Virus record (IMG/VR): IMGVR_UViG_3300032265_001317
Location: 1-64,000 of that record
Reading direction: 5' to 3' (one strand)
Source of the DNA: a virus
DNA: 64,000 nucleotides
Below are positions 9,307-56,100 of the stretch, one piece after another (the first letter of the stretch is position 1; every line of letters starts with the position of its first letter). The position numbers were made by a program, and so were the translations under genes. The notes beneath the pieces are model-generated. The model saw nothing but the letters and a program-made list of their open reading frames with translations, was not told the DNA's origin and did not search any database.

Positions 9307-11844
9307 TTATAGTCCTGCAAATTGTATCCAGACTCTGTTAGAGCCATCTTGTATGTATTGGAATTCAATTCCAGTATTTGGTTCAACCCAGAAATCGCCA
9401 ATACGTGCTGTGAATGGAGTTGAAGTTGAAACAATAACTCGCGGTACATATAACAAGTAATTTTCATACTCGCCACCTTCTCTGCTGTAAACACTTCCTT
9501 GAACTCCAACTCCGCCACCTACTACCAATGCGCCAGTAGTTGTACTGGTTGAGCTAGCAGTACTGCTAATAGTTAAACGTCCTATTGTTCCGTTGTAAGT
9601 TAGCCCCACAGTTGAATCAATGTTTGAATATGTTCCGATAGCTTCGGTTAATCCTAGATAGAATGTACCGGTTGTAGCAGAGTTAACAAATACTTTTGCG
9701 GCAGCGGTAGTAGTATTACTAAAAATAGTTGCCGCATTTGTCCATACAGGTATTGATCCGTTGGATACCAAAATTGTATTGGTTGTACCAATTGCCAACA
9801 TGGTTGTGGTATTAGCTGACAGTTGATAAGGAACACTACCCAGAGCGCCACCTTGTAAATTGGTTGCTGTGGTTATGACACCTGTGATGCCATTACGAAT
9901 AAACATGTTGCCGTTAATGCCAACACTGCCCACTACCTGTAATGCACCTGTATTGGTGCTGGTACTAGTTGCTATGCTTGTTACTTTTACTGTTGTAAAA
10001 ATTCCAGTACCCGGTGTGTTGTTACCAATATTTACATTATCTACACTACCTGCGGCATTTGGATATATAGTTAAGCCACCACCCAGGGTAGGTGTAATAA
10101 TAACATTACCGCCTACAGGACTTAGGTTAACGTTTTTGTTTCCTTTGCTGACATCAAGTCCACCACCAATGAATACACTCTTTCCAATACCCACACCACC
10201 GGCAACTAAAATAGCGCCGTTAGTGGTTGCGGTTGAATCTAGTGTAGATCCAACAATGATATTTTCGCTAACACCAACTCCACCTAATACTGCCAGGGCC
10301 GCATTCTGTGTTGAGGTTGCCGCATATCCAAGGCCAAGGCCAACATCACAATTTAATTGTGTATAGCCAAATCCGTCATAATAAAATGCACTACCAATAT
10401 TGATTTGATTGTCAATACCATCAACTAGATTATCACTACCAATAGCAATAATGTTGTTACCATAGGTCATGTTTTGTGCAACACTAGGACCTATGAAAAA
10501 ATTATAACTTCCAGTTGTAAAATTAGGCGCGGCATTGTCGCCAATAAAAAAGTTTTGTTCTCCAGTTTTTAACCCAGATCCTGCGTTGGTTCCAATAGCA
10601 ATATTCTTTTGTGCATTATTGTTTACATAAACAGGTGCGTCTGTTTCCCAAGGAACATCGTCGTCTAGAAGAGAAGGATATACTAGTAAACTGTCAGCGT
10701 ATAATGCAAGTGTATTAGCATCTATTGTTTTTACATAATATTGTTGGTCAAAACTAGCATTAGTTGGATCATATTCAATTGTAGCAGGTTCTTTAAAATA
10801 TGCAATTGATATCTGTTGACCTGATGATAATCCGTGGTTAGGTACAGTAATAATTCCTGTACCAGTGGTAAAAGCTGGGTACTGAGATGATGTGCTTGCT
10901 GTAACTGTTACAAGATTAAATGATAATCTAGTGGAAATTGTTGCAGTCGACAGGCTAGCATAGTTCATGATATATGTACCAGTTCCGCCAGTTCCAGTAA
11001 CTCGACCAAGAATTATAAAAGCATCAATTATTGTAGGAAAGCCGTCTGTAGTGTAAAATGTTGAACCAACAGTAACAGTTCCAGTTGTAACAGAAGTTAC
11101 ATTAACTATATTGCTTCCAGCAGTGACTTGTACTGTAACAACTGCATAACTTCCGGTGGTTGTATAGGTATATCCATTATACTGTACAGCGGTTACAGTT
11201 CCTACATACTGGAATCCTCGTATGCCTACCTGACGTAGTGCGCTATCGCCAATAGCAATACTGTTAACAATACTTGTACCCGAGCTTAGTGCCAACCGAC
11301 CAATAGCAATACTTTTTACTGCCTGGTTCATGTTTTGCAATGCATCGTAACCAATTACAATATTTTCGTGACCTGTTGGAAAATTATCAGGTACAGGAAG
11401 CGAAAGCCCCTTGATGGCAATGTTGTTTACATTACCAGAATAACCTACACCAATTTGCAGTCCGTTGACCTGTATGTCGTTTTGAGATACTAATTTATTT
11501 TGTGTACTGATTCCTCCAACCACTTGCAGAGCGGCCTTGCTTATAAAAGTTTCGCCTTGATTAACTCCGGTTGCCGCAGTAGATCCAGAAACAACCACAG
11601 TGGCTGTACCAGTTGCCGCAAGCGTAATATTGTTTCCGGGAATTTGATTGGTTATTGTACCAGTGGTGAACAACAGAAATCCCAAGCTGGATCTATAGCT
11701 GGTTACCAGTGTACTATCTGTAACAATAGTAAAACCAGTTTCAGTAGTATCTGTTGCTGGCAACTGAGGTTGGGCATTGGGAAGAGTAATGTAAGTATTA
11801 CTACCTCCTGACCTTGCAATTGATCCGCTTAATAATGATGGCAT
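9307..11844 (-). CDS. Fibre protein with YadA-head-like repeats, 845 aa
   Basis: Residues ~155-215 and ~405-490 carry repeats like those of trimeric autotransporter (YadA) heads: SIAIGRLALSSG, SIAIGDSALR, NIAIGTNAGSGLKTGEQN, NFFIGDNAAPNFTTGSYN. Such repeats form left-handed beta-rolls in trimers. Between and after them are GGVGIGKSVFIGGG-type fibre-shaft units. The C-terminus (GDFWVEPNTGIEFQYIQDG, ending WIQFAGL) resembles small end domains of other phage fibres. It is likely a host-contact fibre of mixed architecture. It sits in a close-packed minus-strand series, 16 bases after the preceding stop. Confidence 0.75.
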   Translation of the reverse strand: MPSLLSGSIARSGGSNTYITLPNAQPQLPATDTTETGFTIVTDSTLVTSYRSSLGFLLFTTGTITNQIPGNNITLAATGTATVVVSGSTAATGVNQGETFISKAALQVVGGISTQNKLVSQNDIQVNGLQIGVGYSGNVNNIAIKGLSLPVPDNFPTGHENIVIGYDALQNMNQAVKSIAIGRLALSSGTSIVNSIAIGDSALRQVGIRGFQYVGTVTAVQYNGYTYTTTGSYAVVTVQVTAGSNIVNVTSVTTGTVTVGSTFYTTDGFPTIIDAFIILGRVTGTGGTGTYIMNYASLSTATISTRLSFNLVTVTASTSSQYPAFTTGTGIITVPNHGLSSGQQISIAYFKEPATIEYDPTNASFDQQYYVKTIDANTLALYADSLLVYPSLLDDDVPWETDAPVYVNNNAQKNIAIGTNAGSGLKTGEQNFFIGDNAAPNFTTGSYNFFIGPSVAQNMTYGNNIIAIGSDNLVDGIDNQINIGSAFYYDGFGYTQLNCDVGLGLGYAATSTQNAALAVLGGVGVSENIIVGSTLDSTATTNGAILVAGGVGIGKSVFIGGGLDVSKGNKNVNLSPVGGNVIITPTLGGGLTIYPNAAGSVDNVNIGNNTPGTGIFTTVKVTSIATSTSTNTGALQVVGSVGINGNMFIRNGITGVITTATNLQGGALGSVPYQLSANTTTMLAIGTTNTILVSNGSIPVWTNAATIFSNTTTAAAKVFVNSATTGTFYLGLTEAIGTYSNIDSTVGLTYNGTIGRLTISSTASSTSTTTGALVVGGGVGVQGSVYSREGGEYENYLLYVPRVIVSTSTPFTARIGDFWVEPNTGIEFQYIQDGSNRVWIQFAGL

Positions 11845-11860: not shown

Positions 11861-12244
11861 TTATTGGTTAGCTGACTCTAGTATACTTAGCGTTAGCACA
11901 AGTGTTCCGGTACTAGACGCAAAGCATCTAATACTATCAAGCTCTTCGACGATCATTTTTCCACCAAGAGGAACTGCGGCATCGTTTGCAGGTACGCCAT
12001 AATTTTTTACCAGGTAGGTATCGTTGTTGCCTGCTTGGTATCCGTTACCTTGTGCATCAGCTAGCACCACTCGATTTCTGTGATGTATGAAATTTACATA
12101 AGCTGTTCCAGTTGAAATATTTGAAATCTGTGCCATTAGCACAATCGCAGTTGTTCCAACAGGAGCAGTGTAAACTGTAGCAGTTGTGCTAGTCGTAAGA
12201 GCGGCTGTTTTTGTTTTAAACGTGTTTAATGGAATTAATGCCAT
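11861..12244 (-). CDS. Small conserved virion-associated protein, 127 aa
   Basis: A 127-residue protein (MALIPLNTFKTKTAALTTST) with a compact beta-sandwich-like pattern: VYTAPVGTTAIVLMAQISNI, YVNFIHHRNR and LGGKMIVEELDSIRCFASS. Short proteins of this look occur beside fibre genes in T4-like environmental phages, but I do not know a defined function. It lies 17 bases after the 3209-residue gene and 16 bases before the YadA-like fibre, so it is probably part of the fibre operon. A role as connector or fibre-associated protein is only a guess. Confidence 0.65.
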   Translation of the reverse strand: MALIPLNTFKTKTAALTTSTTATVYTAPVGTTAIVLMAQISNISTGTAYVNFIHHRNRVVLADAQGNGYQAGNNDTYLVKNYGVPANDAAVPLGGKMIVEELDSIRCFASSTGTLVLTLSILESANQ

Positions 12245-12261
12245 TTTATTTTATCCTTATT

Positions 12262-15200
12262 TTAACCCACACCAATCGCTAATACGAACGGTGTTAAATT
12301 AGCAAACAGTGATTTTGTAAATGTTCTACCACTTAACACACCTGTTGCCTGACTAATTACTAACCCTGGACCAATACGGAAGTCACCGTTTTGGTCTGTA
12401 CTTGTAAAGAATACTTTACCGCTGTCTAACTGTACTGTTTCTTTACTCTGTACAGGATCTGCATAACCCACTTGAGGCAATGCTCCATAGTTTGTTCCAG
12501 CACCAACATATTCAAATACATATCCTGACGCACTAATGTAACTACGCTGATAGAAGTTTACAGTTGCCCCGTCTGGGAACAAATCTGTACGTCTTACGTT
12601 TTCGCCTAGTTGAACAATATGGTGAGTACCATTTCTTGCCCAGTAACTTAAACCAGTCATAACGCTGTTATATCTTCCGCCAGTTTCAATATCATAAATT
12701 AATCTTTGTAATATCAACTTGATATCTCTACGGCATTTTGCATCATCATATGCAAATCCTGCTGTATATGTTGAACTAATAAAATTAATAGTGTTATTGA
12801 TAATAGTTGCTTTGGCATTCTCTAAGTTATTTACTGCTGATTGAATTGCACTAGTTGTCCAACTGATACTAGGTTGAGAAACTGCTGGCAATCCGCTGAT
12901 GCTTCCAGCATTGATCACAGAAGTTGTTATTCCAATCAATGAACTTAGCGAAGCGGCTTCTGTTGCACTGGCGTAACTAGTCGCTGTAGATTGTGTCACA
13001 GTATTTCCACTAGATCTTGTTACTGTTTGTCCTTGTATAACTTGTTGCGCCACTGAGTTTAAACGTCCAAGAGCCGCTACGGTTGCTGTAGTTTCTCCAG
13101 GAATCTGGCTTACCGCACCTACAAAATATGCACGGGCCGCACCAACACTTGCACTATTAGTTCCATATAGAATGTCATAGCATAATGCATCTACAATGTA
13201 TCCAACATCTCTTGCACATGTAGCAGTAGTGTAGTAAGGAATAGGTGCATTAAATGGTGCAATGCTACCAGCCCTCTGTACATCAATCCAACTGGTTACT
13301 TCGGTTTGTAAGAAAGTTCTGTTTGCCTGCAACAAATCTTTGGCAGCGATTCTGTTAGGATTTCCGCCAACTGGATTTGTAAATGTCAACGCAGGAATAT
13401 AATTAGTTCCACTATTAACGATACTGGCAATACTATTAAATGCGGCAAGTCCTCTTATCAATGCAGTTATATCTGATTGCAAGATAACCTGCGAACTAGT
13501 AGAAATATAATTTATAGCCGCAATTTCTTGTATCTTTTGAGCACTCAATACAAGCTGACTTGAAGAGTTAGATCTTAGGTATGCATTGCCACAAGTGATA
13601 GTGTTATAATTAGTTCCTAAAGCAACGTCATATGCCACACCATCAATAATGTATCCGCTATCTCTAGCGCAAGTTGCAGTATTGTAAACAAATCCCACAT
13701 TGGTTGAAGTCACATAGGCACTTACCTCTGCTGAGATAAAATCTAAGTTTTGTTTGATTAGTTCAATTGCACTACCGGCACCACTTGGAACAGTTCCAGA
13801 CGTGGTTCTTAACACTGCTGGATATAGTGCTTCTGCTTCGTCGCTGGTTGTTGGTTCACTAAGGATGCGAATAGTATCATTGATACGCAAATCAATAAAC
13901 GGTACCGCACCTGCTCCGCCTGCCAACAACGGAACTACTACCTGGGAAACAGTATTTTGATATGTGGTAGTTAATACCTTGTTACTGACCACTGCATCTG
14001 TAACTGTGTTGATATATCGCAATGCCGCCACGTGTGCCGCTACTTGTTCAGTTGAAGTATTAGCAGATGATAGTATGTTTGTTCCATTTATTTTAGGATT
14101 GTCAGCAATGGTACTGCTTAATACAGTGTAATAAGCATTTCCACAGAAGAATAAAGTAAAGAAGTTTGCGTTAGCTGGGTCACCACCGCCACTGGTCAAT
14201 GCCTTGTTCAAAGTTACACTTTGATAACCTAGGTCGGTTACGATTGTTCCTGTATCGGCATACAAGGTGTAATCAGTGCCAGTAAAATGTCCAAATTGAT
14301 CTCTAATATAAACTGAGTTACCAACAGCAATACCTGTGTTGTCAATACCTGTAATAGTAATTGTACCTGTTGAGATAGTTGCAAGACTTGGAGTTGCATT
14401 CAAGAAACCTGGCAAGTTTTGTTCATTTAAATGACCAGGATCTGGTTCTACTTCCATTACTAAAGAAATATGTGGACGAGGTGTAACATCAGGTAAAAAT
14501 ACTTCTACCTGTCCGTTGTTTGGCCAGAAGCCACTTGGATAATACTGGTTCAATCCATCGGGACCTGGACTATTTGGATAGGCCTTGTTTGGTGGATTAT
14601 ATAATGTTCCGCTAAATGCTCTCTTACCGTAACCTTTGGCCAACAAACAAACATCACCAAAGTTGGCGTTACTGTTAACAATAGAAGCAATACCGCCATT
14701 GGTAACTTGTACACCCACGCTGGAGAAAACAGTAAACACAGAAACTAACTGTGCATATCCGTTGTTGGTAATTTTAACTCCGTGACCACCTTGGTTAACT
14801 TGAGTAAACGCATCGTAAACAAACGAATTAATTGGACTACGATCACTAATAACTCCGCCGTCAACTAGACTTCCTCCCATAGATCCAATTGGATCTAATT
14901 TACGGCTGTTCCATGTGCTGGTGTTACCTGTGTACTCTAAAGCCAATGCTTCAACTTGAATATCATTTAATGGATATGCACTTATATCACCAAAGTAAAG
15001 AGTAGCATTATCCGCATAACCCACAGTGGCAGTGCTCAATCCAATTAGATAAACTCCAGGTTGTCCAGCATCTTCGACATAAGTTACCTTAGATGCTATC
15101 TTGACATCATCTGCCAATTGTCCTGTTGCTGAAAATAATCCGCTACCTTGCCATACAGGAGGTGCATATAAAGGACCTTGACTGATAATGGTAGTGATAA

Positions 15201-18200
15201 TATTGAAATTTCTTCTAATAGCCTGTTGTGGCATGTAATCGCCACCATACTGGAAGTATGGATTGATCACTTGCAATGCAGTTGTTCCTGTAATTACTGT
15301 TACGGGCTGATTAGCAACAACCTGTAAAGCAATATCTCTGGCATAGTTTAATGCCATAGTGGTTGTAGTTTCTTGACCGGCAATATAATTATAACCTGCA
15401 TTCCAGTAGGATAGTCCTGCTTCGATAGATTTGCTGTTGCCGTTTAACAATATGTCTTGGCTAACTGCATCAACAATTAATCCGGTATCTCGATAACATT
15501 TTGCTTCGTTGTATTCGAACGCACCAGGATTGTATGTCAATTCAAGATAAGCAATGGTTTCAGCTTTGATAAATTCTTTGTTGGCTTCGAGTCTAGCAAA
15601 TCCATACAATTCTGGCGATGTTGAACCGTAGAAAGTCAATGTGTTAATTGCTTTTAGACCAACTGCAACACCGGGACCGTTTTGTATAATATTAGTAATG
15701 GTACTGATTGCTTTGTTGATAATTGCGACACTGCCGGCATAATCTATGCCGCCTGGATCTGAATTGAAGAGTTGCACAACGTCTGTTTGCAACGGAGTCA
15801 CTGGAATATTTTGTATAATTTGTCCAGCTAAGGTTTTTACAAAATTAAATCCATCTACTGTTTGTGTAATTTCAGTTGCGATATTAGATGCACCACCGGT
15901 TACAGACCAGTATGCCAGTCCTGCTGTTACTGCTTGCTTGTTTCCGCCAGCATACATATCTAATGCGATGCTATCAATAATAGAGCCAACATCACGAGCA
16001 CATTTGGCTTCGTCGTAAATAAATCCAGGATTGGTTGCTTTTATAAACGCATTAACTTCTGTACCAAAATAATCTTTGTTGGCTTTCAATATACGAAGAG
16101 TCGCTAGTCTACTAGGCAATTCTTGATTGTTGATTTCGCCGTTTGGCACAATTCTATCTGACCATCCAGAAGTGGTACCACCTAAAATTTCAAGCACAAT
16201 ATCAAATTCAGATTTGATTATAGCAACTTCGTTGGCACTAGCTGTAATTGGAGGAGTCTGTGTATTGGCCGACACTGTATCCGACAATATGATCTGCGTA
16301 GCAGTTGAGTATCTAGGAACTAGATCATCAGTTGGTGTTATATTTTGAATAACTTTAACTGTTAGATCTTTCAAGTAGGTAACTGCATCTATTGTTTGAT
16401 TGATCTCTCCATAGATTGCACCAGTGTATCCTGTTTGATTCCAATATTGCAAGCCAGCAAATGTACTTGCTACATAAGCTCTATTTGAACCACTTGCGGC
16501 GTCGACTGGATATCTTAAATCTGTTGCAATGCTGTCAACAATCAAACCTACATCTCTAGCACACTTTTCTTGACTGTACGGAAATTGTCTATTAGCCAAG
16601 TTCCAGTTAATGTAGTTGATAGTCTGTTGTTGAATAAACTGTCTATTGGCCTGCATTAAAATTTCAGCACTCATGTATGCCGCGTCAGGTCCTGCGCCCA
16701 TATAAATTTCTGGTGCAACAGATGGACCACGTAAAATAATATCAGTGATAGTTTCAAAATTACGGTTTATAGAATTTGACGCAATGTCCCCTCCTACCAG
16801 TACAGTATTTCTAACTTGACGATATGTTGGATTGTCTGCAATATTTGTACAAGTTGTATTTGTAATAACATTTTTACACAATTGATTTAAGTAATCAAGT
16901 GCGCTGATAGTTTGAGTTTCTTGACCGCTAATACGACTAATAACTCCGTCATAGTAAGCAAGACCGCTTTGTACAGATTTTTCATTACCACCAAATACTG
17001 TATCGTATGCCACGTTCTCAACAATAATACCTACATCTCTAAAACATTTTTCTCTTGAGTAATCAAAGAAGAATAATTGATTATTGAGATACGCTAATGT
17101 TTCAGCTTGAATAAATTGTCTATTGGCCGCAAGCAGATAATAAGCATTCCAAATTTCAACATTGGTGCTGGTGTTCATATTCATTGGAATTTGCTTGCCA
17201 GCCACATCGGGGCCATTTCGTATGATATTGGTTATAATATCAATTTTTTGTTTTAGAACAGCAGACTCGTTTGATGTACCAGGTGTCAAATTGGTTACCT
17301 GTGTTACTGTACTTTGATACGTGTTGGTCAGTTTGGTAGCTGTTACAATGCCAGGAATAATTCCTCTGATGAAATTATATGCCGCAGTAGTCTGTGGTAC
17401 TTCGTTTGCTATTGCAGTAGAAGTTGATAGATAACCAAAGTAGTATGTTCCAGATTTAATTGCCTGTTTGTTACTATAACCAGCGGTAGCATCTGGATTT
17501 AATAAGTCAAATGCAACACTCTTAACTATGTATCCAACATCTCTGATACATGTAGCAGTGGTATAATTTGTAAATCCTAATGTATTATTAATATAATCAA
17601 TTGTCTGTGTTTGAATACTAGGAATAGCCGCGATCAATGCTGTATAAGCATTAATCACACTGGTCGATGTTGAAGGAGATCCGTTGGATTTTATTAAACT
17701 GGTAACACCAGCAGTGCCGTTATTGAGAATATTCAATATTACATCAAAGTCTGCGCTGACGATATCACCAATTGTAGAATTAGATGCCGCAGTTGCAATA
17801 TTGGTTGCCAGTACTTTTACATAACTGATTGCAGATGTTGTGGTTGTAATTTCGCTTGCAATAGAACCAGTATAGTCACGTTGATTCCAATATTGCAATC
17901 CGGCAAATTGACTTTCGCTTGTGGATTGATATAGTAAATCAGTAGCAATACTATCAACAATTAAACCAGTATCGCGATAACATTTGGCTTGGTCAAACGC
18001 ACCATATTGTTTGTTAATGTAGGCTACAACTTCGGCTTGAATAAATGCACGGTTAGCATTGATCAATGTAGCGGCATTTACAACCGGTGTGCTTACACTC
18101 TTGGTTAGGCTGATAGGAGTCTTGGATGTTGCGGCACCAGGGCCATTTGAAATAATGTTAATGATGGTATCAACACTAGAAGCCGCCAAGTTTGCCTGAG

Positions 18201-21200
18201 CAGTTGTTCCAGTATTGACTGTAATGACTTGAGTTACACTTGTTTGTGCAGGACTTGGTACTGCCAATCCGATAACAATATCTTTAACCAACTGTCTTAG
18301 ATATGTGTAAGCATTGACTGTTTCAACACGCTCAGTTGGTATGGCACTAGATGTTGCTGAGAAACCATAATAGTATACGCCTGATTGTATTGCTTGTCTA
18401 TTTCCTCCGTACAACAAATCAAAACTTACAGAATCAAGCATATATCCAACGTCTCTATAACATAGAGCTTGATCATATACAAATCCTGCAGTCTTTGTTG
18501 ATTCTACATAGGCAACTGCCTCTGCTTGAATATAACTTCTGTTGGCTTGCAATAATGCATAGGCATTTAATACATTACCGTCTGCGCTGGCCACAATACC
18601 GTTTGGCACAATTTTATCTGTTACTCCATTAGTACCAGTTGAAATAATATCAGTAATTATTTTAAAGTCGGTTGCAATAGCAGTGGCCTGAGTAGCACCA
18701 CTTGCCGGTAATGCAGTATTTTGACCAACTGCACTTTGATATCGTGTACCTGTGGTAATATTTCTAATAACTTTTTGTGCCAGGCTACTTACATAATTAA
18801 TAGTATTAGTTGTAGTAGTTAATTCAGCACTAATTTGTCCTGTGTATCCACTTTGATTCCAATATTGTAAACCAGCAAATGTAGACTGACTGCTGGTTGA
18901 GAATAATAAATCTTGAACAATCGCATCAACTACTAGACCTGTGTCTCTTGCACATTTACCTTGATCGTATGTAAACCCTGAATAGGTAGTATTGATAAAA
19001 TTAATCATGTTATCAATAATTGTAGCCGTTGTAGAATTAATAGTTGAAACAATATTTTGCGTAGAAGTAGTTGTCCAAGTTATGTCTGGGTAAGTTGGCG
19101 ATGGAATACTTGCGGTACTTCCGCCTGTAATTGCATCTGTGACGATTCCTACCAATCCAGCTATGGAGGTGGCTTGTGTAGCAGTTCCTAGCAATCCAGA
19201 AAACGCTTGAGTAACAATATTACCGGATGATCGAGTAACAGTCTGACCTTGTGCAACTTGTTGAGCAACAGTTGACAATCTGCTAAATGCTGCCACAGTT
19301 TGTGCAGTTTCATTTGGAACTTGTGATGCCGCACCAACAAAATATGCTTGTGCCGCTGTTACACTGGCACTGTTACCACCGTATAATACGTCATAGCATA
19401 GTGCATCTACAATGTATCCAACATCTCGATAGCAAGTTGAAGTAGAATACGTAAAGGTTGTCGAGAACGGACTAGTATTGCCTGCTACCTGTACACCTAT
19501 CCATGCAGTAACTTCAGACTGTAAGAATGTTCTATTTGATACTAATAAATTTTTAGCATAGATATTATGTACATCTCGGCCAGACGGACTTGTAAATGAT
19601 AAAGTTGCGCCTGTTCCGGAATTAATAATTGCAATCGTTGTATCGAAAGAATTATTACTTCTTGTTATTGCGGTTGCATTACCTGCGGCTATTCCGGCAA
19701 CTACTGTTTTTAAATATCCTATTGCACCTATTGTCTGTACTAATTCTGTGCTGGTTACAATAGCCGACGATGCATTACCCCTGCGGTATGCATTGCCACT
19801 AGTAATGCCGTTGTAGTTTGTACCAAGTGCAAGATCGTATTCTGCTCCTGTTAAAATAAATCCTGCATCTCTGCGACATTTAACTTTATCGTATCTAAAC
19901 CCTTGAGTAAATGCTTGGTCAACAAAGTTCACAACCTGTTCTTGCATAAACGGCTTGTTGGCCAACATCAAAGTACGAGCATTCCAGAAGCCAGGATTTT
20001 GTTGTCCAGGATTGATATACATACCAACTGTTGGTTGAACTTGTCCTAATGTTCCGGTTGTATAAACTGTTATTACTGTGTCGCCTGCGGCCCAGGTGGA
20101 TGTTCCTACCACTGTCGGAACTTGAATAGTTCCTGATGGAAGAAACATTGTTCCGTCTTTCATCCATGGACCAGATTGGTTGGTACAGTTTTGAATATAT
20201 GGTGAGTGAAACAGATCAATTTTTGCATTTCCGACCAATGGAGGGAACGCAGTAGCATAGGCTCCGCGATTAAATTCATCAAGGTATGCACCTTCTAACA
20301 ATCCACTGCGACCGTTGGTCATCTGCAACTGTGCAATATAGCATCCAGATTGTACATGGAACAAGTCTTGTGTTTTGTTGATTGGTTCGATACTGGTTGT
20401 ACGTAGATCTGATCCTACTACACTGGTATAAGGTTGTAAAAGAACTGGATTGTCTTCTAGGTAATGTCCGGCAGCTACACGGATTTGTGTACCAGGTCCA
20501 AAATATGGAGATCGAGTTGCACCAGTCACTGTGCGGCATGCACGGCTTGGATCTTCTGCACGACCATCATTGGTATCATCGCCATCCATGGTCACCCATA
20601 GCTGGTTAGTAACTACCGGCGCTGTACCAATTGGCTTTTTACCTCTGGCTCTGATGTCACCAAAAATATCAACGTATCCGCCTGCCTGTGGAAGCATGCT
20701 GATGTTTTGTGCAGAGTAGTCTGGATTGTTTGATACAGTATTGATACTCTGAATCAAGGTAGAATATACATTGTCAATAAAACCTTGACTGAATCTTTCG
20801 TTTGGATTACCTAGTGTGCTGGAAGGATAAGAACTTCCATCTGTCGCTGTTGTTATTCCTCGAGGAATAACATTTCCTTTAACACCTAAATCTTTGCCAA
20901 CAGCAACTCCGCCTTGAACAATCAGGGCGCCAGTTAAACTGCTGGTTGAGTTAGCAGTAGAGGCAACAAACATTAGATTGGTTGTCAGCAGACCAGTTCC
21001 GGGATTATATGTTAATCCCACCTGTGGATTGACATAGGTACTAGAACTTCCGTAAAGTTGCGAAGCACTCTTTCCAAAAATATCTTTCGTGAATACAGGA
21101 TAAAAATCTGTACTTGTATTTGTATTGGTAACAATTAATAATGTACTACTGGTAGCCGCGGCTACTCGTCCATAAATGTATCCACCAACGTTTAAATCTT

Positions 21201-21891
21201 TTTCAACACCAAGACCGCCTGGAATATAAACTGATCCAAACACTCGATTGGTGCTGGTATCATATACGCCAGCCGGAGGAGGAAACTGTCCCTCTTTGTT
21301 CATGCTGTCTGGATTACCAACGTTGGCTGTACTTGTACTGTTGATTAATAAAGTGGTAACAACTGTGGTTGTATTGTTTGATGTGGTAACATGAGGACCA
21401 ACAACCAGCTGACCTTCGATAGTGGTAACTGACTTTTTACCAAGCACATTAAAGTTAGTAGCTGTAATATTAACATAGGTATTGATGTACGGTGTCACAG
21501 GAACAAATAAAATAAATGTTCCTGTATTGATTGTTCCTTCAATTGGTTTATCTAATCCAACAGAGAAACTATTGGTAACTGTGGTTACTTTTGATCCAAC
21601 TGCAATGTTGGTACCGGTTACTAGATAGTTTGGATATATACCGTTTGTATTGGCAAAATACAAATAGTACGATCCGACACTTGATGATGTGGTAACTAAT
21701 CCAGCAACTGTTGTTACTGTACTTAATGCGGCTATCTGTACAACACCACCACCTGTAATGTCAAGCTCAGAACCTGCGACGATAGAAGCGGTTGTCCCTG
21801 CTACTACGGAGAATGAACCGTTTGGAACCGATATGGTTTGATTACCGTTGGGTACGCTGTTTACTACACCTGAGACTCTAACAATAGCCAT
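12262..21891 (-). CDS. 3209-aa modular virion protein: beta-helix plus 13 repeat modules
   Basis: Residues 1-390 have fibre-type segments (LIVQGGVAVGKDLGVKGN). Residues ~430-600 resemble a pectate-lyase-type beta-helix (VTMDGDDTNDGRAEDPS, GTQIRVAAGHYLEDNPV). From ~640 comes a run of ~160-residue, probably helical modules, each with an invariant C-x-R-D motif followed by a G-x-I-V-D-type segment. Ten lie at about residues 672 to 2133. A second beta-helix-like part follows at ~2240-2480 (GHGVKITNNGYAQLVSVFT), then three more modules at ~2741, 2892 and 3053. The C-terminus (STDQNGDFRIGPGLVISQ) matches a segment of the giant fibre at 1-5396. Related but shorter proteins are annotated as structural proteins in marine T4-like phages. 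Likely a large tail or fibre component; no catalytic residues could be assigned. A late-promoter motif lies just upstream. Confidence 0.8.
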   Translation of the reverse strand: MAIVRVSGVVNSVPNGNQTISVPNGSFSVVAGTTASIVAGSELDITGGGVVQIAALSTVTTVAGLVTTSSSVGSYYLYFANTNGIYPNYLVTGTNIAVGSKVTTVTNSFSVGLDKPIEGTINTGTFILFVPVTPYINTYVNITATNFNVLGKKSVTTIEGQLVVGPHVTTSNNTTTVVTTLLINSTSTANVGNPDSMNKEGQFPPPAGVYDTSTNRVFGSVYIPGGLGVEKDLNVGGYIYGRVAAATSSTLLIVTNTNTSTDFYPVFTKDIFGKSASQLYGSSSTYVNPQVGLTYNPGTGLLTTNLMFVASTANSTSSLTGALIVQGGVAVGKDLGVKGNVIPRGITTATDGSSYPSSTLGNPNERFSQGFIDNVYSTLIQSINTVSNNPDYSAQNISMLPQAGGYVDIFGDIRARGKKPIGTAPVVTNQLWVTMDGDDTNDGRAEDPSRACRTVTGATRSPYFGPGTQIRVAAGHYLEDNPVLLQPYTSVVGSDLRTTSIEPINKTQDLFHVQSGCYIAQLQMTNGRSGLLEGAYLDEFNRGAYATAFPPLVGNAKIDLFHSPYIQNCTNQSGPWMKDGTMFLPSGTIQVPTVVGTSTWAAGDTVITVYTTGTLGQVQPTVGMYINPGQQNPGFWNARTLMLANKPFMQEQVVNFVDQAFTQGFRYDKVKCRRDAGFILTGAEYDLALGTNYNGITSGNAYRRGNASSAIVTSTELVQTIGAIGYLKTVVAGIAAGNATAITRSNNSFDTTIAIINSGTGATLSFTSPSGRDVHNIYAKNLLVSNRTFLQSEVTAWIGVQVAGNTSPFSTTFTYSTSTCYRDVGYIVDALCYDVLYGGNSASVTAAQAYFVGAASQVPNETAQTVAAFSRLSTVAQQVAQGQTVTRSSGNIVTQAFSGLLGTATQATSIAGLVGIVTDAITGGSTASIPSPTYPDITWTTTSTQNIVSTINSTTATIIDNMINFINTTYSGFTYDQGKCARDTGLVVDAIVQDLLFSTSSQSTFAGLQYWNQSGYTGQISAELTTTTNTINYVSSLAQKVIRNITTGTRYQSAVGQNTALPASGATQATAIATDFKIITDIISTGTNGVTDKIVPNGIVASADGNVLNAYALLQANRSYIQAEAVAYVESTKTAGFVYDQALCYRDVGYMLDSVSFDLLYGGNRQAIQSGVYYYGFSATSSAIPTERVETVNAYTYLRQLVKDIVIGLAVPSPAQTSVTQVITVNTGTTAQANLAASSVDTIINIISNGPGAATSKTPISLTKSVSTPVVNAATLINANRAFIQAEVVAYINKQYGAFDQAKCYRDTGLIVDSIATDLLYQSTSESQFAGLQYWNQRDYTGSIASEITTTTSAISYVKVLATNIATAASNSTIGDIVSADFDVILNILNNGTAGVTSLIKSNGSPSTSTSVINAYTALIAAIPSIQTQTIDYINNTLGFTNYTTATCIRDVGYIVKSVAFDLLNPDATAGYSNKQAIKSGTYYFGYLSTSTAIANEVPQTTAAYNFIRGIIPGIVTATKLTNTYQSTVTQVTNLTPGTSNESAVLKQKIDIITNIIRNGPDVAGKQIPMNMNTSTNVEIWNAYYLLAANRQFIQAETLAYLNNQLFFFDYSREKCFRDVGIIVENVAYDTVFGGNEKSVQSGLAYYDGVISRISGQETQTISALDYLNQLCKNVITNTTCTNIADNPTYRQVRNTVLVGGDIASNSINRNFETITDIILRGPSVAPEIYMGAGPDAAYMSAEILMQANRQFIQQQTINYINWNLANRQFPYSQEKCARDVGLIVDSIATDLRYPVDAASGSNRAYVASTFAGLQYWNQTGYTGAIYGEINQTIDAVTYLKDLTVKVIQNITPTDDLVPRYSTATQIILSDTVSANTQTPPITASANEVAIIKSEFDIVLEILGGTTSGWSDRIVPNGEINNQELPSRLATLRILKANKDYFGTEVNAFIKATNPGFIYDEAKCARDVGSIIDSIALDMYAGGNKQAVTAGLAYWSVTGGASNIATEITQTVDGFNFVKTLAGQIIQNIPVTPLQTDVVQLFNSDPGGIDYAGSVAIINKAISTITNIIQNGPGVAVGLKAINTLTFYGSTSPELYGFARLEANKEFIKAETIAYLELTYNPGAFEYNEAKCYRDTGLIVDAVSQDILLNGNSKSIEAGLSYWNAGYNYIAGQETTTTMALNYARDIALQVVANQPVTVITGTTALQVINPYFQYGGDYMPQQAIRRNFNIITTIISQGPLYAPPVWQGSGLFSATGQLADDVKIASKVTYVEDAGQPGVYLIGLSTATVGYADNATLYFGDISAYPLNDIQVEALALEYTGNTSTWNSRKLDPIGSMGGSLVDGGVISDRSPINSFVYDAFTQVNQGGHGVKITNNGYAQLVSVFTVFSSVGVQVTNGGIASIVNSNANFGDVCLLAKGYGKRAFSGTLYNPPNKAYPNSPGPDGLNQYYPSGFWPNNGQVEVFLPDVTPRPHISLVMEVEPDPGHLNEQNLPGFLNATPSLATISTGTITITGIDNTGIAVGNSVYIRDQFGHFTGTDYTLYADTGTIVTDLGYQSVTLNKALTSGGGDPANANFFTLFFCGNAYYTVLSSTIADNPKINGTNILSSANTSTEQVAAHVAALRYINTVTDAVVSNKVLTTTYQNTVSQVVVPLLAGGAGAVPFIDLRINDTIRILSEPTTSDEAEALYPAVLRTTSGTVPSGAGSAIELIKQNLDFISAEVSAYVTSTNVGFVYNTATCARDSGYIIDGVAYDVALGTNYNTITCGNAYLRSNSSSQLVLSAQKIQEIAAINYISTSSQVILQSDITALIRGLAAFNSIASIVNSGTNYIPALTFTNPVGGNPNRIAAKDLLQANRTFLQTEVTSWIDVQRAGSIAPFNAPIPYYTTATCARDVGYIVDALCYDILYGTNSASVGAARAYFVGAVSQIPGETTATVAALGRLNSVAQQVIQGQTVTRSSGNTVTQSTATSYASATEAASLSSLIGITTSVINAGSISGLPAVSQPSISWTTSAIQSAVNNLENAKATIINNTINFISSTYTAGFAYDDAKCRRDIKLILQRLIYDIETGGRYNSVMTGLSYWARNGTHHIVQLGENVRRTDLFPDGATVNFYQRSYISASGYVFEYVGAGTNYGALPQVGYADPVQSKETVQLDSGKVFFTSTDQNGDFRIGPGLVISQATGVLSGRTFTKSLFANLTPFVLAIGVG
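12640..19990 (-). repeat. Thirteen diverged ~480-bp coding repeats (C-x-R-D modules)
   Basis: Conserved cysteine codons fall near 19876, 19432, 18951, 18461, 17979, 17550, 17042, 16561, 15997, 15494, 13668, 13215 and 12732. Spacing is about 145-190 residues except for one gap of ~609 residues that holds the second beta-helix part. Modules 3, 5 and 8 share an FAGLQYWNQ variant, while modules 4, 7, 9 and 10 share a GGN/NGN variant. Modules 11-12 most resemble modules 1-2. The DNA is well diverged, so the expansion is not recent. Confidence 0.8.
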
Positions 21892-23395: not shown

Positions 23396-24580
23396 TTACT
23401 TGAAGCTTACGTTTGCGCTAGTGATAGCAACTTTACCTAAGTAGTCAGCCGCATTACCTAGAGAAGAAGCAGTGTTGCTCAACTCTACATAACCGTAACG
23501 TGTTAGGAAGCCAACTACTGGCTCAAATGTTGCTGGGTCAAGAACAACACCAGAACTCATTAGAGGAATATATGGGCAATAGAACGCGGCAGCATCTGCC
23601 TCGCTAGCACCCTTATAACCAATAAGAACTTGGCTGTTGTCTGCGCCGCTGTCAGTTAAGTAACTGTCAACGTAGATACGCATTGCACCATTCAATGTAC
23701 CAACAAACTTGGTGTTTGTAGGAGCTTCGAATGTACCTTCAGTTGTACGTGCAAAAGCACTTGTTGTAGCAGACTGAAGAATTGTTAGAGCTTGGTTAGA
23801 AACTACAGCCCAGTTACCAGCACCACGACGTGTACGTTGAGCAATCAAGTTGCTTACACGGTTGATCTGGATAGCTAGAGCGGCATGCTCGTCGCCTACG
23901 AATGTAGCTGTACCAGAAACTAATGACTGGTCATATGTTTCTTCTACTGTTGCTAAAGCACGTAGAGAAGCTAGGATTTCTTGGTCAATTTCAGCAGTAA
24001 TTTCTTGTGCTAAAGCGGCCATGATTTCTGCTTCGATATCAATACCTTGTTGTGCTTGTGCATCTTGTGCGGCCTCGAATGTCCAACGAGCTGATAGCTT
24101 GCGGCTCTTAGCTTCGACTGGGCTCTTCAAGATCTGGATGCTCATACGCTTACCAGGTGTGCCTTCTAATGCGGCTGTTGTGTTAGCACGTGGAGTTGCA
24201 TCAACGTTGTTACCACTGTAAGCGGCAGCAATTTTGAATGGGCTCAATGCCTCATCACCAGCAACGATACCATCACCACTTGATGTATCAGCATAGCGAA
24301 CACGTAGAGTATGGATCTGACCAACTGGACCGGTCATTGGTTGTACACCAACGATTTCGTTGGCAATAACTGTAGGCATAACACGACGGATAACAGGTAG
24401 AATAACACGGTTAAGTGTTGCTACGTTACCAGCGGATGTTGCACCAGCAGTTGCGCTTTCAGCCAAGTACTTACGTGTGTTTTCTAAGCAAACTTGCATA
24501 GAAGCACGACGGTTACCTTGTAGGCCTTCAAGCAGAGCTTCTTTGGTCTCTGACCATCTTTCATTTAATAGTTGTGACAT
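23396..24580 (-). CDS. 23: Major capsid protein (gp23-like)
   Basis: 394 residues, shorter than the 521 of T4 gp23, as in distant T4 relatives. The conserved core is clear: VILPVIRRVMPTVIANEIVG then VQPMTGPVGQIHTLRVRYAD, which matches the T4 segment ending GVQPMNSPTGQVF. It forms the hexamers of the head shell. T4 gp23 is cut by the gp21 protease just before this core; here the best site is L39-A-E41|S42, giving a ~353-residue mature form. LLE|G at 16-19 is an alternative. AAGGAG ribosome site; gp22 lies upstream and a strong terminator downstream, which is the T4 order 21-22-23. Confidence 0.96.
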   Translation of the reverse strand: MSQLLNERWSETKEALLEGLQGNRRASMQVCLENTRKYLAESATAGATSAGNVATLNRVILPVIRRVMPTVIANEIVGVQPMTGPVGQIHTLRVRYADTSSGDGIVAGDEALSPFKIAAAYSGNNVDATPRANTTAALEGTPGKRMSIQILKSPVEAKSRKLSARWTFEAAQDAQAQQGIDIEAEIMAALAQEITAEIDQEILASLRALATVEETYDQSLVSGTATFVGDEHAALAIQINRVSNLIAQRTRRGAGNWAVVSNQALTILQSATTSAFARTTEGTFEAPTNTKFVGTLNGAMRIYVDSYLTDSGADNSQVLIGYKGASEADAAAFYCPYIPLMSSGVVLDPATFEPVVGFLTRYGYVELSNTASSLGNAADYLGKVAITSANVSFK

Positions 24581-34610: not shown

Positions 34611-35039
34611 CTAAGTTTTTTTGATTATGTGTGAGCCATGTACACGGACTTGTATGTGTCCATTGTAGTATTCGTCGGATTCTAATACCTTGCGGTCGAA
34701 TTGTTCTCGGGCCTCAATGTAAGATGTTTCTGATTTGCTAGTACAATAATATAATATTTCGCGGGTAAATTTATCTATGCCTAGTTGTGTGATGTCTGCT
34801 GTTAAGTTAGGACTGGACCCGTAATATTCCTGCCAGTCACTGTCGATTTTGCTTCGAATTTTCTTTTTCTTCTTGGTGCCGTTCTTTAACTTTACAGTCT
34901 TGTAGGTCGTTTTACTAAACTTTGCTAATTTTTTGCCAATATATTTCCGCCCCGTAACTGTGTTAGTAATAAGATAAACAAAACCAACACATGTTTCAGG
35001 TAACTCTGTAACTATAGCACCTTGATACAGCCAAGTCAA
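34611..35039 (-). CDS. Putative GIY-YIG (Seg-like) endonuclease, 142 aa
   Basis: Residues 19-36 (GFVYLITNTVTGRKYIGKK) fit the GIY-YIG core with VY at 21-22 and YIG at 33-35. A conserved Glu is expected in YIEAREQFDRKVL near residue 107. The C-terminus (YYNGHIQVRVHGSHI) matches single-domain Seg-like nucleases common in T4-like phages. These either are free-standing homing nucleases or have been recruited for phage DNA processing. It has no separate DNA-binding domain. It lies immediately after the Hc1-like gene (adjacent, no gap) and before a long noncoding stretch, a typical position for such an element. Confidence 0.75.
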   Translation of the reverse strand: MTWLYQGAIVTELPETCVGFVYLITNTVTGRKYIGKKLAKFSKTTYKTVKLKNGTKKKKKIRSKIDSDWQEYYGSSPNLTADITQLGIDKFTREILYYCTSKSETSYIEAREQFDRKVLESDEYYNGHIQVRVHGSHIIKKT

Positions 35040-50156: not shown

Positions 50157-53100
50157 ATGGCTAATTCAATCAAAACAATTAATTTGTTGCCCGAGTTTTT
50201 AAGAACAGATAAAAATAGCAAATTTTTATCTAGCACTGTTGACCAATGGATTAAAAAACCAGAACTAGAACGTATTGATGGATACGTGGGATCTACATTG
50301 ACTCCTACTTACAATTCTACTGCCGATGTTTATATTTCAGAATCGTTGCCTTTAAGAAAACAATATCAACTTGAACCTGCGGTTGTAATAAAAGATAATC
50401 AAAGTATTGTAACTGGTGCAGTAGCCATTGACGACCTTGTTAACGAAATTTCTATCAAAGGTGGACAAACAGGAAATTTTGACAAACTATTTAGAAGTGA
50501 ATTTTATTCGTACGATCCGCATATTGATTTGGATAAGCTAGTTAACTATACTGAATATTATTGGTTAACAACTGGTCCAAATACTGTTGTTATAAGTGGA
50601 CAACCTACAAATACAACAAGTACGTTTACCGTGGTTGATAATGAAGTTAAATCTGCATTTATTTTTACACCTAACGGACTAACACCAAACCCGATTGTTA
50701 CCTTGTATAGAGGAAATACATATAATTTTGAAATAAGTTCAGTATATAAATTTTATGTAAAAACTGATTCATCATCTGGTCCTTTTGGTTTGTTAACTAG
50801 AAATATAACAAATAACGGAATTACAACTGGCACTATTACATTAACGGTTGATCAATACACTCCTGAAACTTTATATTATATTTCTGAAACAGATGACAAG
50901 GTACAAGGACAATTTGTTATTAAAGATTCTACACAAAATTCGATAATTGATGTAGAAAAAGAAGTTATTGGGAAAAAGAGTTATAGATCAGGAACCGGAA
51001 TTGAATTATCAAACGGAATGAAAGTTCGTTTTGGTGGAACGGTTATCCCTGAATCATATCAAAATAAAGAATACTGGGTAGAAGGTGTTGGTGAATCTAT
51101 TAGCTTGATAGATTATGAATTATTATCATCCCCTGAGGCAATGGCCAGTGTATTTGACGAAAACTTTGATGCTACTGGATTTGACGATTATCCGTTTGAT
51201 AATTTTAAAACACTGCCGATTACCCCCGAGTATATTACTATTAATCGTGCCAGTAAAGATTTAAATCCATGGTCTAGATACAATCGATGGGTTCATTCGG
51301 ATGTAATTAGAATTAGTGCAGAAGCATCTGGGCAAGATCCGGTATATTCAGTTAACCTTAGGGCAAAACGTCCTATTATTGAATTTAAAGCAGATTTAAA
51401 ATTATATAATTTTGGAACAACTGGTGCAACAAACGTTGACCTAATTGACAATGTGACGCACGATGCATTTTCAGCTGTCGAAGGATCTGCTGGATATTAT
51501 GTTGACGGACTTTTATTACAACAAGGGCAACGAATTATATTCAATGCAGATACTGATTCAACTGTAAGAGAAAAAATCTACGAAGTAAATTATGTTACTG
51601 TTAACGGATATAAATCAAGATTACAATTAGTTCCTGTAACCACAAGCATTTCCGGATGTTCTGTTTCTGTAAATTACGGAAATGATTTTGCAGGTACTGC
51701 ATGGTGGTACAACGGATCTAATTGGGTATATGCTCAACAACATAACAAACTTAATCAAGCTCCTTTATTTGATTTATTTGACAAAAATGGTTATAGTTAC
51801 AGCGATACCACTGCTTATCAAAGTAATTTTAGTGGAACTAAAATATTTGGTTACGAAGTAGGTACCAACGGTGCTAATGATGCTGTATTAGGGTTTCCTT
51901 TAAAATATAAAAATAGTGTAGGCGTTGGTAGCTATCTTTTTAAAAATTATTTTACTACAGATCAAATTTCTGTTTCAGTTAATAACGTTGAAACTATTAG
52001 TGTATCAGCAGGGCAAACATTTTTAAAATTTGCTCACGCCGCAGGCGATGTATATTCAAATGTATGGACAGCCACTGAGCCATATCCTATTCCGTTGAAC
52101 GCAAATGGATATTATGATACACCTTTAGGACTTACAAATAATCCACTAAACGGACCTATTTCTAATTTTACTCTAAGTGAAATCAGCGATCATCTTGGAA
52201 CTGCTGTTGCTAGATTGCCTAACTTTGTAGGAGCATTCCCAGGAGTTAGTAATTTACGTGACAGGCCAGATGTTGCTAGATATGCCAGCAGATTAATTTC
52301 AAATGCAAATCCTATGGCATTTGCACATTTGTTTATTGGTAAAAAAGAACACAGCATCGTTGATGCAGTTACAAAAGTAGGCGACCAATACAATCAATTT
52401 AAAATGTCATTTTTGAATAAAATGATATCAGTTGGAAATCTTAACAATCCAATTGCATCAGTTGATACAATTTTAGCAGAATTAAATTTAGGAAAAAATT
52501 TACAATCTCCTTATTTCTTATCTGATATGATTGCCTATGGCAATGACAAAGTAACCAGACAATGGACTGTAAAAAATATTAGAAATACAGTCTACCCTAT
52601 TTCTGCTGACTTTGATCCTGTTGCTTTAGGTTTAAGATCGGTACTAGTTTATTTGAATGGATCTCAACTGGTATTAGGGCAAGATTATAATTTTATTACC
52701 AACGATTCATCAATAGAAATTTTAACCACATTAATGCTGGGCGATGTAATTACAGTTAATGATTATGCTACAACCGAAGGGTGCTTTGTACCGCCTACTC
52801 CGACCAAACTTGGATTATATCCTAAATTTAAACCAGCAAAATACATTGACGATACCTATGCTACACCGACACCTGTAATCCAGTGCCACGATGGTAGCAT
52901 AATGGTTGCCTATAACGATTTTAGAGATGACATTGTTCTTGAATTAGAAAAACGAATTTACAATAATATTAAGGCAGTATATCAAACAGAACTATTTGAT
53001 ATTAATTCTGTAATACCCGGCGCATTCAGAAATAGTGAGTATACATTAGCCGACTGTAATTCTATATTAATTAACGATTTTATTAAATGGTCTGGTTTTT

Positions 53101-56100
53101 ATGGAATTGAGTACACAGAAAATTCTACCTTCGATCCAGACAATTCTTTCACATGGAATTATTCTGGTAGTACCAACAAGTTATTATCTATACAAGTTGA
53201 TGGAAACTGGAGAGCAGTTTATAAATTCTTCTACGATACTGATCGCCCTCACACCGCACCGTGGGAAATGCTAGGATTAACTGCTATGCCTGATTGGTGG
53301 GAGTCGTTGTATGGTCCTGCCCCGTATACCAACGGTAACTTATTATTATGGGAAGATTTAGAAAAAGGATTAATAAAATATCCTAGCGGTTGGGTACGTG
53401 ATCCTATATATGCTAGACCCGATTTGAGAAATATTATACCGGTAGACGAAGGCGGCAATTTACTTGATCCTACGGTATTATTAAGTGAGTACACACCATA
53501 CAGTGTTAGACAAAATTGGAAATTTGGTGACCTAGGACCTGCAGAAACAGCATGGCGCCGTAGTAGCCATTGGCCTTTTGCGTTACAAAAATTATTAGCA
53601 TTATTAAAACCTGCTAGCTATGCATCATTAATGTATGATCCTAGTAGGATGACACAAAATAAAGCAGGACAGTGGTCGTACGATATTGCCGGGTCTTTCT
53701 TAAATCCTAAAAATGTAAAAATATTTGATACACTTACTACTTTAACAAGCGGTTATAGCGTATTACTTGTTGAATCAGGTAAACAGAGATCTGTTAATTA
53801 CGTCAACGAGTTAACACAAGATTTAAATTTTTTCGATATTAATTTATTTCACAAAGTAGGCGGATTTGTCAACAAGGGAAATTTACAAATTGTTATCGAT
53901 GCATACGAGCCAACCAGCACTGGCCCGGGTGCATTGCTTCCTCAAGAAAATTATCAATTATATCTTAATACCAGTAACCCAGTTAATACAACAAGTATTT
54001 CTGGTTTAATTATACAAAAAGTCGACGGCAAATTTGTTATAAAAGGGTATGACAAGTATCGTCCTTACTTCACAGTATATACTCCTGTAAGAAATAGTTC
54101 AACTCCAACATTAAGTGTTGGAGGAATCAGTTCACCATATATAAATTGGTCTGCTGGTACAGCCGATGCAGGAGCATCTAATCTTAATTCGATAGATCTT
54201 ACAACAGCCAATAGCTCTCCTGTTGGCAAGTTTTATAAAACAGGACAGATTGTTAACTACGGTAATAGATATTATATAGTAATTAAAGATCACTATGCTG
54301 AGAGTGTGTTCAATGTAGCTTATTATCAGTCACTTCCATCGTTGCCTATCTCGGGAGGCGCAACAGTTCAAACATATTATAAGTTTGACAAGGTAGGAGT
54401 AAGAATTCCTTATGGAACACAGTTTGATAACATACAACAAGTGTATGATTTTATTGTTGGCTACGGCGACTGGTTGTCAGATCAGGGATTTATTTTTAAT
54501 CAATATAATTCAACTTTAAATTCTGTATTAGATTGGAATTTCACTGCTAAAGAATTTTTATATTGGACTACACAAAATTGGGCCAATAATAGTATTATTG
54601 CTCTTAGCCCGTTTGCGGATCAACTTCAATTTAAATTTAGCAATAGTGTTGTAGATAATATTTTTGATAGTTTTTATGATTACGGAATTTTAAAAGAAAA
54701 TGGTCTCGAATTTCCTAAAAATAATTTAAATATCGGCAGGGACGAAGGTGTTTGTACTATTAGATCTATAAACACCACAGAAGGAATTTATTTTGCACAA
54801 TTAAATTCTGTACAAAAAGAACACGCCATGGTGTTTGATAACACCACAGTTTTCAACGATACTATCTATGACATTGAAACTGGATATCGTCAACGCCGCG
54901 TAAAATTAATTGGGTTTAGAACTGCCAACTGGAATGGAGATTATTTCACTCCTGGATTTGTGTACGACACAGCTCAAATATCTACCTGGGCCCAATTTAC
55001 TGATTACAAATACGGCGAAGTTGTAAGATTTAACAGCAAATATTATTCAGCAATACAAGATGTTATTGGATCCAGTAAATTTGATTTTACTAAATGGGTG
55101 TTACTCGGAAGCAAGCCTGTAGCAGAATTAATTCCTAACTTTGATTACAAAATTAATCAGTTTGAAGATTTTTATAGTCTTGACATTGACAACTTTGACA
55201 GTAACCAACAAGAGCTTGCACAGCACTTGGTTGGATATACACCACGAGTATATCTAAATAATATCTTTATTAATCCTATTGCACAATATAAATTCTATCA
55301 AGGATTTATTAAAGAAAAAGGATCAAAAAATTCTATTATCAAATTAAGTAAAGCCAGTATACAAAATCAGCAAGGATCAATTTCTTTTAATGAAGAATGG
55401 GCATTTAGAGTTGGTAGTTATGGTTCTTACGAAACGTACAACGAAATAGAAACTACTCTACATGAAGGAAGTTTCAAATCAAATCCTCAGGCAATTAACT
55501 TTGTAGATACTGTGCCAGTAGTTCCTGATGATTTATTATTGTATAAAACTCCTGGCAATTTAGCTATAGTTCCTGATGATTATGTTCCTTCTAGCACGTT
55601 TGTAACAACATCAACTTCTAATTTTGAATTAATGACAGCGGGCTATGTAAATCTAAACGATGTTACATCTACTGCTTATAATGAAGATAGTTTTATTGCC
55701 ATTGCCAATACTCGTGCATTAAACGATGGTGAAGTTATATGGCTAGGAAATACCAATAATGGTGATTGGGATGTTCGTAGATATCAAAGATCTACAGCCG
55801 GTATTATTTCCGTACAGATATATAATCCTGCAGAAAGTATTTCTTTCTCAACTGATGTTCCACACGAATTGAGCATAGGAGAAATTATTTCTGTATCTCA
55901 ATATGACGACCAAGTCAATGGGGTATATCGAGTAATTGACATATTGTCAAGAACAGAGTTTGTTGTATCTTCTACACTTTCTTTTATTACTACATTTACT
56001 ACAGATTCTCCAGGTCTGTTATTCAGCTTCAAAAGTGTTAGATATAGTAATTTTGATTCTATACCTTTGGATCAAGAATTACAAGAATTGCCATATGGAG

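Follow-up and report, generated by a model that had tools for sequence, protein, structure and literature searches.

What kind of domain is strung thirteen times along the giant tail protein of this virus, and what might it carry? The window (the whole 64,000-nucleotide stretch of DNA analysed here, taken from a 92,158-base virus record) encodes an open reading frame (ORF) of 3209 amino acids at positions 12262-21891 on the minus strand. Thirteen C-x-R-D motifs run along the protein in groups of ten and three, with the motif cysteine at residues 672, 820, 980, 1144, 1304, 1448, 1616, 1777, 1964 and 2132, and then at 2741, 2892 and 3053. Motifs are spaced 144-187 residues apart, bar a single 609-residue gap between motifs 10 and 11. 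Each of 2000 shuffled versions of the protein holds at most three such motifs, which rules out a repeat arising by chance. The first-pass annotation, made from the sequence alone, had read the protein as ten plus three modules that each keep one cysteine in C-x-R-D, and the count bears this out; the motif cysteines make up 13 of the 23 in the protein, and a few modules carry an extra one. The parts of the protein and its downstream neighbour are given below, with module cores taken as C-40 to C+62 around the motif cysteine.

12262-21891, minus: tail fibre-like virion protein with modules, 3209 aa (phrog_5342, phrog_4527)
20632-21891, minus: N-terminal part, aa 1-420, module-free, no Pfam match
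19972-20634, minus: first half of the split domain, aa 420-640, beta-helix-like by eye
19690-19998, minus: module 1, Cys 672
19246-19554, minus: module 2, Cys 820
18766-19074, minus: module 3, Cys 980
18274-18582, minus: module 4, Cys 1144; modelled singly as aa 1099-1251 (18139-18597), with a phycobiliprotein match
17794-18102, minus: module 5, Cys 1304; part of a tandem model with module 4
17362-17670, minus: module 6, Cys 1448
16858-17166, minus: module 7, Cys 1616
16375-16683, minus: module 8, Cys 1777, with an insertion following helix E
15814-16122, minus: module 9, Cys 1964
15310-15618, minus: module 10, Cys 2132
14452-15204, minus: second half of the split domain, aa 2230-2480
13483-13791, minus: module 11, Cys 2741
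13030-13338, minus: module 12, Cys 2892
12547-12855, minus: module 13, Cys 3053, shortened by the end domain
12274-12570, minus: C-terminal end domain, aa 3108-3206, common to most module proteins
11861-12244, minus: small downstream ORF, phrog_1276 (unknown), putative partner

The ORF matches the PHROGs families phrog_5342 (tail fiber, E 3e-104) and phrog_4527 (short tail fiber), and T4-like phage capsid and portal genes lie upstream of it. Module-bearing ORFs in general are located among tail and baseplate genes and resemble tail fibre families, which identifies them as tail fibre proteins, and database records label them virion structural or tail fibre proteins. Adjoining the fibre, an ORF at 9307-11844 (minus strand) encodes a weakly tail spike-like protein (phrog_4636); this ORF and the phrog_1276 ORF are possible chaperones or receptor-binding partners of the fibre. 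Elsewhere in the window, positions 50157-63281 (plus strand) encode a giant virion structural protein of 4374 aa (phrog_10938), whose residues 3124-3277 resemble the head closure protein Hc2, and an ORF at 34611-35039 (minus strand) that matches phrog_447 and homing endonuclease families adjoins SbcC/SbcD-like genes.

The ten-module array is bracketed by flanking parts at residues ~420-640 and ~2230-2480, for which Pfam holds no family. In five related loci (L017, L019, L023, L026 and L027), segments matching window residues ~430-575 and ~2330-2425 directly adjoin one another, free of modules, so the modules interrupt a domain that is continuous in these relatives. The earlier proposal that the array splits a domain thus holds, and the modules may form the stalk that it envisaged.

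To identify the modules, we compared them with known families at the level of sequence. In Pfam, the window protein matches a single family, PF00502 (Phycobilisome; E 3.9e-9; score 37 bits, cut-off 22), with a score that is the sum of weak single-module matches, of which the best has an E of 0.002 and most fall below the cut-off. A profile of 39 diverse modules, searched against 177,635 PDB sequences at E up to 10, returned 31 matches. Thirty of these are phycobiliproteins (best E 0.0017), and their alignments superpose the module C-x-R-D on phycocyanin Cys84-x-Arg86-Asp87. Being mutually related, the 30 matches count as one independent hit, though one of very high specificity. A second profile built from 102 modules gave 14 matches in the PDB, all of them phycobiliproteins. 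When 146 cyanobacterial genomes were searched with the module profile, 21 weak matches and no module arrays were found; all 20 loci retrieved are phycobiliprotein ORFs, and all 107 module-profile matches within the retrieved ORFs lie in phycobiliprotein ORFs. Profile-profile alignment of the modules to 43 phycobiliproteins with hhalign gave 95.4% probability (E 1.7e-8 for this single comparison), versus at most 1.6% for 30 column-permuted controls and 0.2% for a reversed one, which rules out a convergent C-x-R-D motif.

The predicted structure of the module leads to the same family. An AlphaFold2 model of one module (window residues 1099-1251, 102 sequences) is helical throughout and confident (pLDDT 92.9, pTM 0.87). 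Searched with Foldseek against 350,542 PDB chains, its best 50 matches are all phycobiliprotein chains (probability 1.00, query TM-score 0.54-0.74), consistent with a phycobiliprotein-type globin fold. A two-module model also shows helical modules (pLDDT 84.8) and gave weak matches only, among which phycobiliproteins are the commonest family; the poor result is probably due to alignments that span two modules. An unrelated helical repeat that came by its C-x-R-D motif through chance or convergence is very improbable. The low scores of individual sequences, in Pfam and in the PDB alike, would leave room for it, but searches by sequence, profile and structure, with their negative controls, name one family and almost nothing else, and the Foldseek result for the single module contradicts it. 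By computation, then, the modules are homologous to phycobiliproteins, with the fold and the attachment triad of that family. The helical character and common fold expected of the modules at first pass are borne out by the models; what that reading of the repeat missed is its identity. The modules are phycobiliprotein-like, bilin-binding globin-type domains.

The attachment site itself is highly conserved. Among 191 non-redundant modules detected by profile, the cysteine is present in 95%, the arginine in 95% and the aspartate in 97%, figures that carry some bias because the profile was seeded with C-x-R-D modules. These three are the only columns more than 90% identical in both modules and phycobiliproteins. 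The modules also have invariants of their own, an aspartate at +14 (100%) and a tyrosine at +30 (98%). CXRD, which the modules have at the helix-E position, serves as bilin-attachment motif both in phycobiliproteins and in two bilin biosynthesis-associated globins, BBAG-1/3 (PMC10151467).

Compared with phycobiliproteins (PF00502), the modules share the fold, with helices A/B-E-F-G aligned and the bilin-attachment Cys-x-Arg-Asp in the same position. They differ in sequence (~20% identity), in the lack of the N-terminal X/Y hairpin in the modelled unit, and in being strung 1-25 per chain in a virion protein. The phycobiliprotein-specific Arg93 and Tyr97 are replaced in the modules when residue columns are compared; because of this, and because the carriers are phage tail proteins, we do not assign the modules to the light-harvesting phycobiliproteins proper. 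BBAGs, as described, are bilin-binding globins outside light harvesting, their genes are associated with haem oxygenase (HO) and bilin reductase (FDBR), and they take up bilin without a lyase (PMC10151467). Unlike the modules, they are cellular proteins of one domain, found in clusters with V4R or B12-binding proteins and not borne by virions (PMC10151467).

How widely do such modules occur? By tblastn, they are found in 244 of 50,697 phage records, of which every one is a cyanophage apart from a single entry named only as a marine virus, and their carriers in cyanophage records are fibre or baseplate proteins. A first IMG/VR search added 29 module loci. Proteins carry from 1 to 25 modules, with a unit length near 108 or 163 residues; loci L016-L026 form a second array class, in which the unit is 108 residues long and has no counterpart to the additional helix and the linker found in the 163-residue unit. 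In our panel of complete genomes, modules are present in S-PM2, Syn1, Syn9, Syn19, Syn33, S-RSM4, S-H9-1, DSL-LC03, S-SM1, S-ShM2, S-SSM5, P-SSM4, P-SSM7, P-RSM4, P-HM1, P-HM2, S-CREM1 and S-SZBM1, and absent from P-SSM2, S-SSM7, S-SM2, S-CRM01, Ma-LMM01, T4, HTVC008M and P-SSP7. The window itself is probably, from its sequence, a piece of a jumbo phage. Its major capsid protein (23396-24580, minus strand) is nearest to those of jumbo phages of Sinorhizobium, Vibrio, Erwinia, Serratia and Cronobacter (67-70% identity), so the window phage may infect a host other than a cyanobacterium, and we dropped confinement of the modules to cyanophages as a claim about hosts.

Of the 18 panel phages with modules, 17 encode CpeT, of the T-type bilin lyase family, and it was detected in no panel phage that lacks modules; in P-SSM7 and S-ShM2 the CpeT matches are weak and exceed the cut-off only when summed over the frame. 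In a set of 17 T4-like cyanophages (the 16 phages of PMC3037559 plus S-RSM4), 14 have both modules and CpeT, three have neither and none is mixed (Fisher p 0.0015, ancestry ignored), a pattern of which part could come from shared ancestry. The exception in the panel is DSL-LC03, which has modules and in which CpeT, CpeS, FDBR and HO were not found. The S-type lyase CpeS was not found in the phage panel and was set aside as a partner of the modules.

An alternative is that phage cpeT, ho and fdbr are directed at the phycobiliproteins or the physiology of the host, the association with modules being a by-product of ancestry. We think this rather unlikely. It agrees with the published view that phage cpeT raises host phycoerythrin (PMC2984593) and with the Syn33-type phages, where CpeT lies away from the module fibre. 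In 11 other phages (S-PM2, Syn1, S-RSM4, S-H9-1, S-H9-2, S-CAM4, S-RIM32 and ACG-2014e, h, i and j), however, a full-length CpeT gene precedes the module fibre, or the first match to a module, by ~0.7-5 kb on the same strand, within a run of tail genes that extends from the baseplate hub to the short tail fibre. CpeT is, moreover, the one accessory gene in Table 3 of PMC3037559 whose distribution matches that of the modules, given a correction for Syn1: the table marks CpeT as lacking there and the Syn1 record annotates cpeT. HO and FDBR also occur in phages of proposed phycobilisome-less hosts, where their purpose is called enigmatic (PMC11480375), which likewise speaks against a host target.

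Other bilin genes follow the modules less closely. P-SSM2 and S-SSM7 carry pebS and ho1 but no modules, and the Pelagibacter phage Mosig has an FDBR and no module match, all of which contradicts FDBR alone as a marker of modules. A bilin reductase gene is found in all five module-bearing panel phages isolated on Prochlorococcus and in none of the ten isolated on marine Synechococcus, the pattern that would result if phages whose hosts are poor in bilin carried their own means of making it; the contrast is confounded by host and ancestry. S-CREM2 encodes the S-type bilin lyase cpcV (L375, 26817-27269), with no module in the 48-kb stretch from 40 to 88 kb, and its long tail fibre, gp85, was set aside as proteomic proof since it lacks a module. 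The gene immediately upstream of the module fibre in S-PM2, Syn1 and S-H9-1 encodes a 2OG-Fe(II) oxygenase, which might hydroxylate the fibre; its positions are:

L181, 7308-7889: 2OG-Fe(II) oxygenase
L182, 6573-7145: 2OG-Fe(II) oxygenase
L036, 9155-9766: 2OG-Fe(II) oxygenase

Large phages carry a different set of bilin genes. In the first search, all three module-bearing contigs above 150 kb (328, 322 and 252 kb) have adjacent haem oxygenase and bilin reductase genes, and a haem oxygenase neighbours 74 of 87 bilin reductase loci. Modules are found in 8 of 13 FDBR-bearing contigs of at least 80 kb, and in 6 of 8 contigs related by capsid, which may or may not encode a bilin reductase; the modules therefore belong to the group as such, and the cassette is no sharp predictor within it. 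The 92-kb record from which the window comes, a fragment, holds no CpeT, CpeS, FDBR or haem oxygenase gene. One contig (L193, 4279-9090) has overlapping haem oxygenase and bilin reductase ORFs, and their surroundings include, by eye, ORFs like ClpS, Hsp20, CsgG and curli subunits. In another (L195, 4170-8801), the pair lies between thymidylate synthase-like and GroES/GroEL-like ORFs, also by eye.

Thirteen modules with an intact attachment site suggest pigmented, possibly light-responsive tail fibres. We infer from sequence a virion fibre that would be pigmented, and we consider it probable that these tail fibre and baseplate proteins carry tandem phycobiliprotein-like modules whose cysteines are loaded with bilin, the fibre responding to light being the speculative part of this reading. 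Bilin would be bound covalently to the module cysteine and loaded in the infected cell. In cyanophages, it would come mostly from the host, with a CpeT-type lyase from the phage. In the large phages, which probably infect other hosts, it would be made by the phage haem oxygenase and bilin reductase cassette, and their modules, like BBAGs, may need no lyase for loading. A light response might, speculatively, alter fibre stiffness or deployment and so tune adsorption to daylight; bilin could instead serve as a rigidifying cofactor or in virion photoprotection.

The modules could also be bilin-free, an anciently captured bilin-binding globin that was multiplied as a helical spacer and keeps its triad for folding or contacts between modules. 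Such structural reuse is viable if unlikely. Variable copy number and the two unit lengths are what spacer stalks show, the cysteine is lost in ~5% of modules, and bilin genes were not detected in some module-bearing phages. Yet a free cysteine and the bilin-contacting arginine and aspartate are ~95% retained while the remainder falls to 25-30% identity, and presence of the bilin lyase gene tracks the modules. Both observations favour bilin-loaded modules. A wider reading, which we put forward tentatively, is that many aquatic myoviruses have pigmented fibres, arrays of biliprotein loaded by phage enzymes, through which the free virion could sense or use light.

The families that share these modules and belong to the same protein class as the window protein (phrog_5342, phrog_4527, phrog_701 and T4-GC 734/830/1017) are known as tail fibre, short tail fiber or virion structural proteins, with no mention of their phycobiliprotein nature in the records and literature found. 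Our literature search found no publication that links phycobiliprotein domains to phage tails. The use of pcyA and pebS in phages has been called a mystery and that of cpeT unresolved (PMC3037559), and HO-FDBR pairs in phages of heterotrophs are termed enigmatic (PMC11480375). The HO-PcyX/PcyA cassettes described there are the same HO and FDBR pair in aquatic phages that occurs here in module-bearing contigs, whereas no phage-encoded partner biliprotein was proposed for them. A biliprotein borne by the virion is a direct candidate substrate for phage bilin genes, and it makes the question of their purpose testable on cultured phages such as S-PM2. If bilin is bound, this would be, to our knowledge, the first pigmented virion fibre. 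Were the fibres pigmented, phage cpeT, pebS/pcyX and ho would have a target in the virion, which might underlie the light-dependent adsorption of several marine cyanomyoviruses (PMC2984593).
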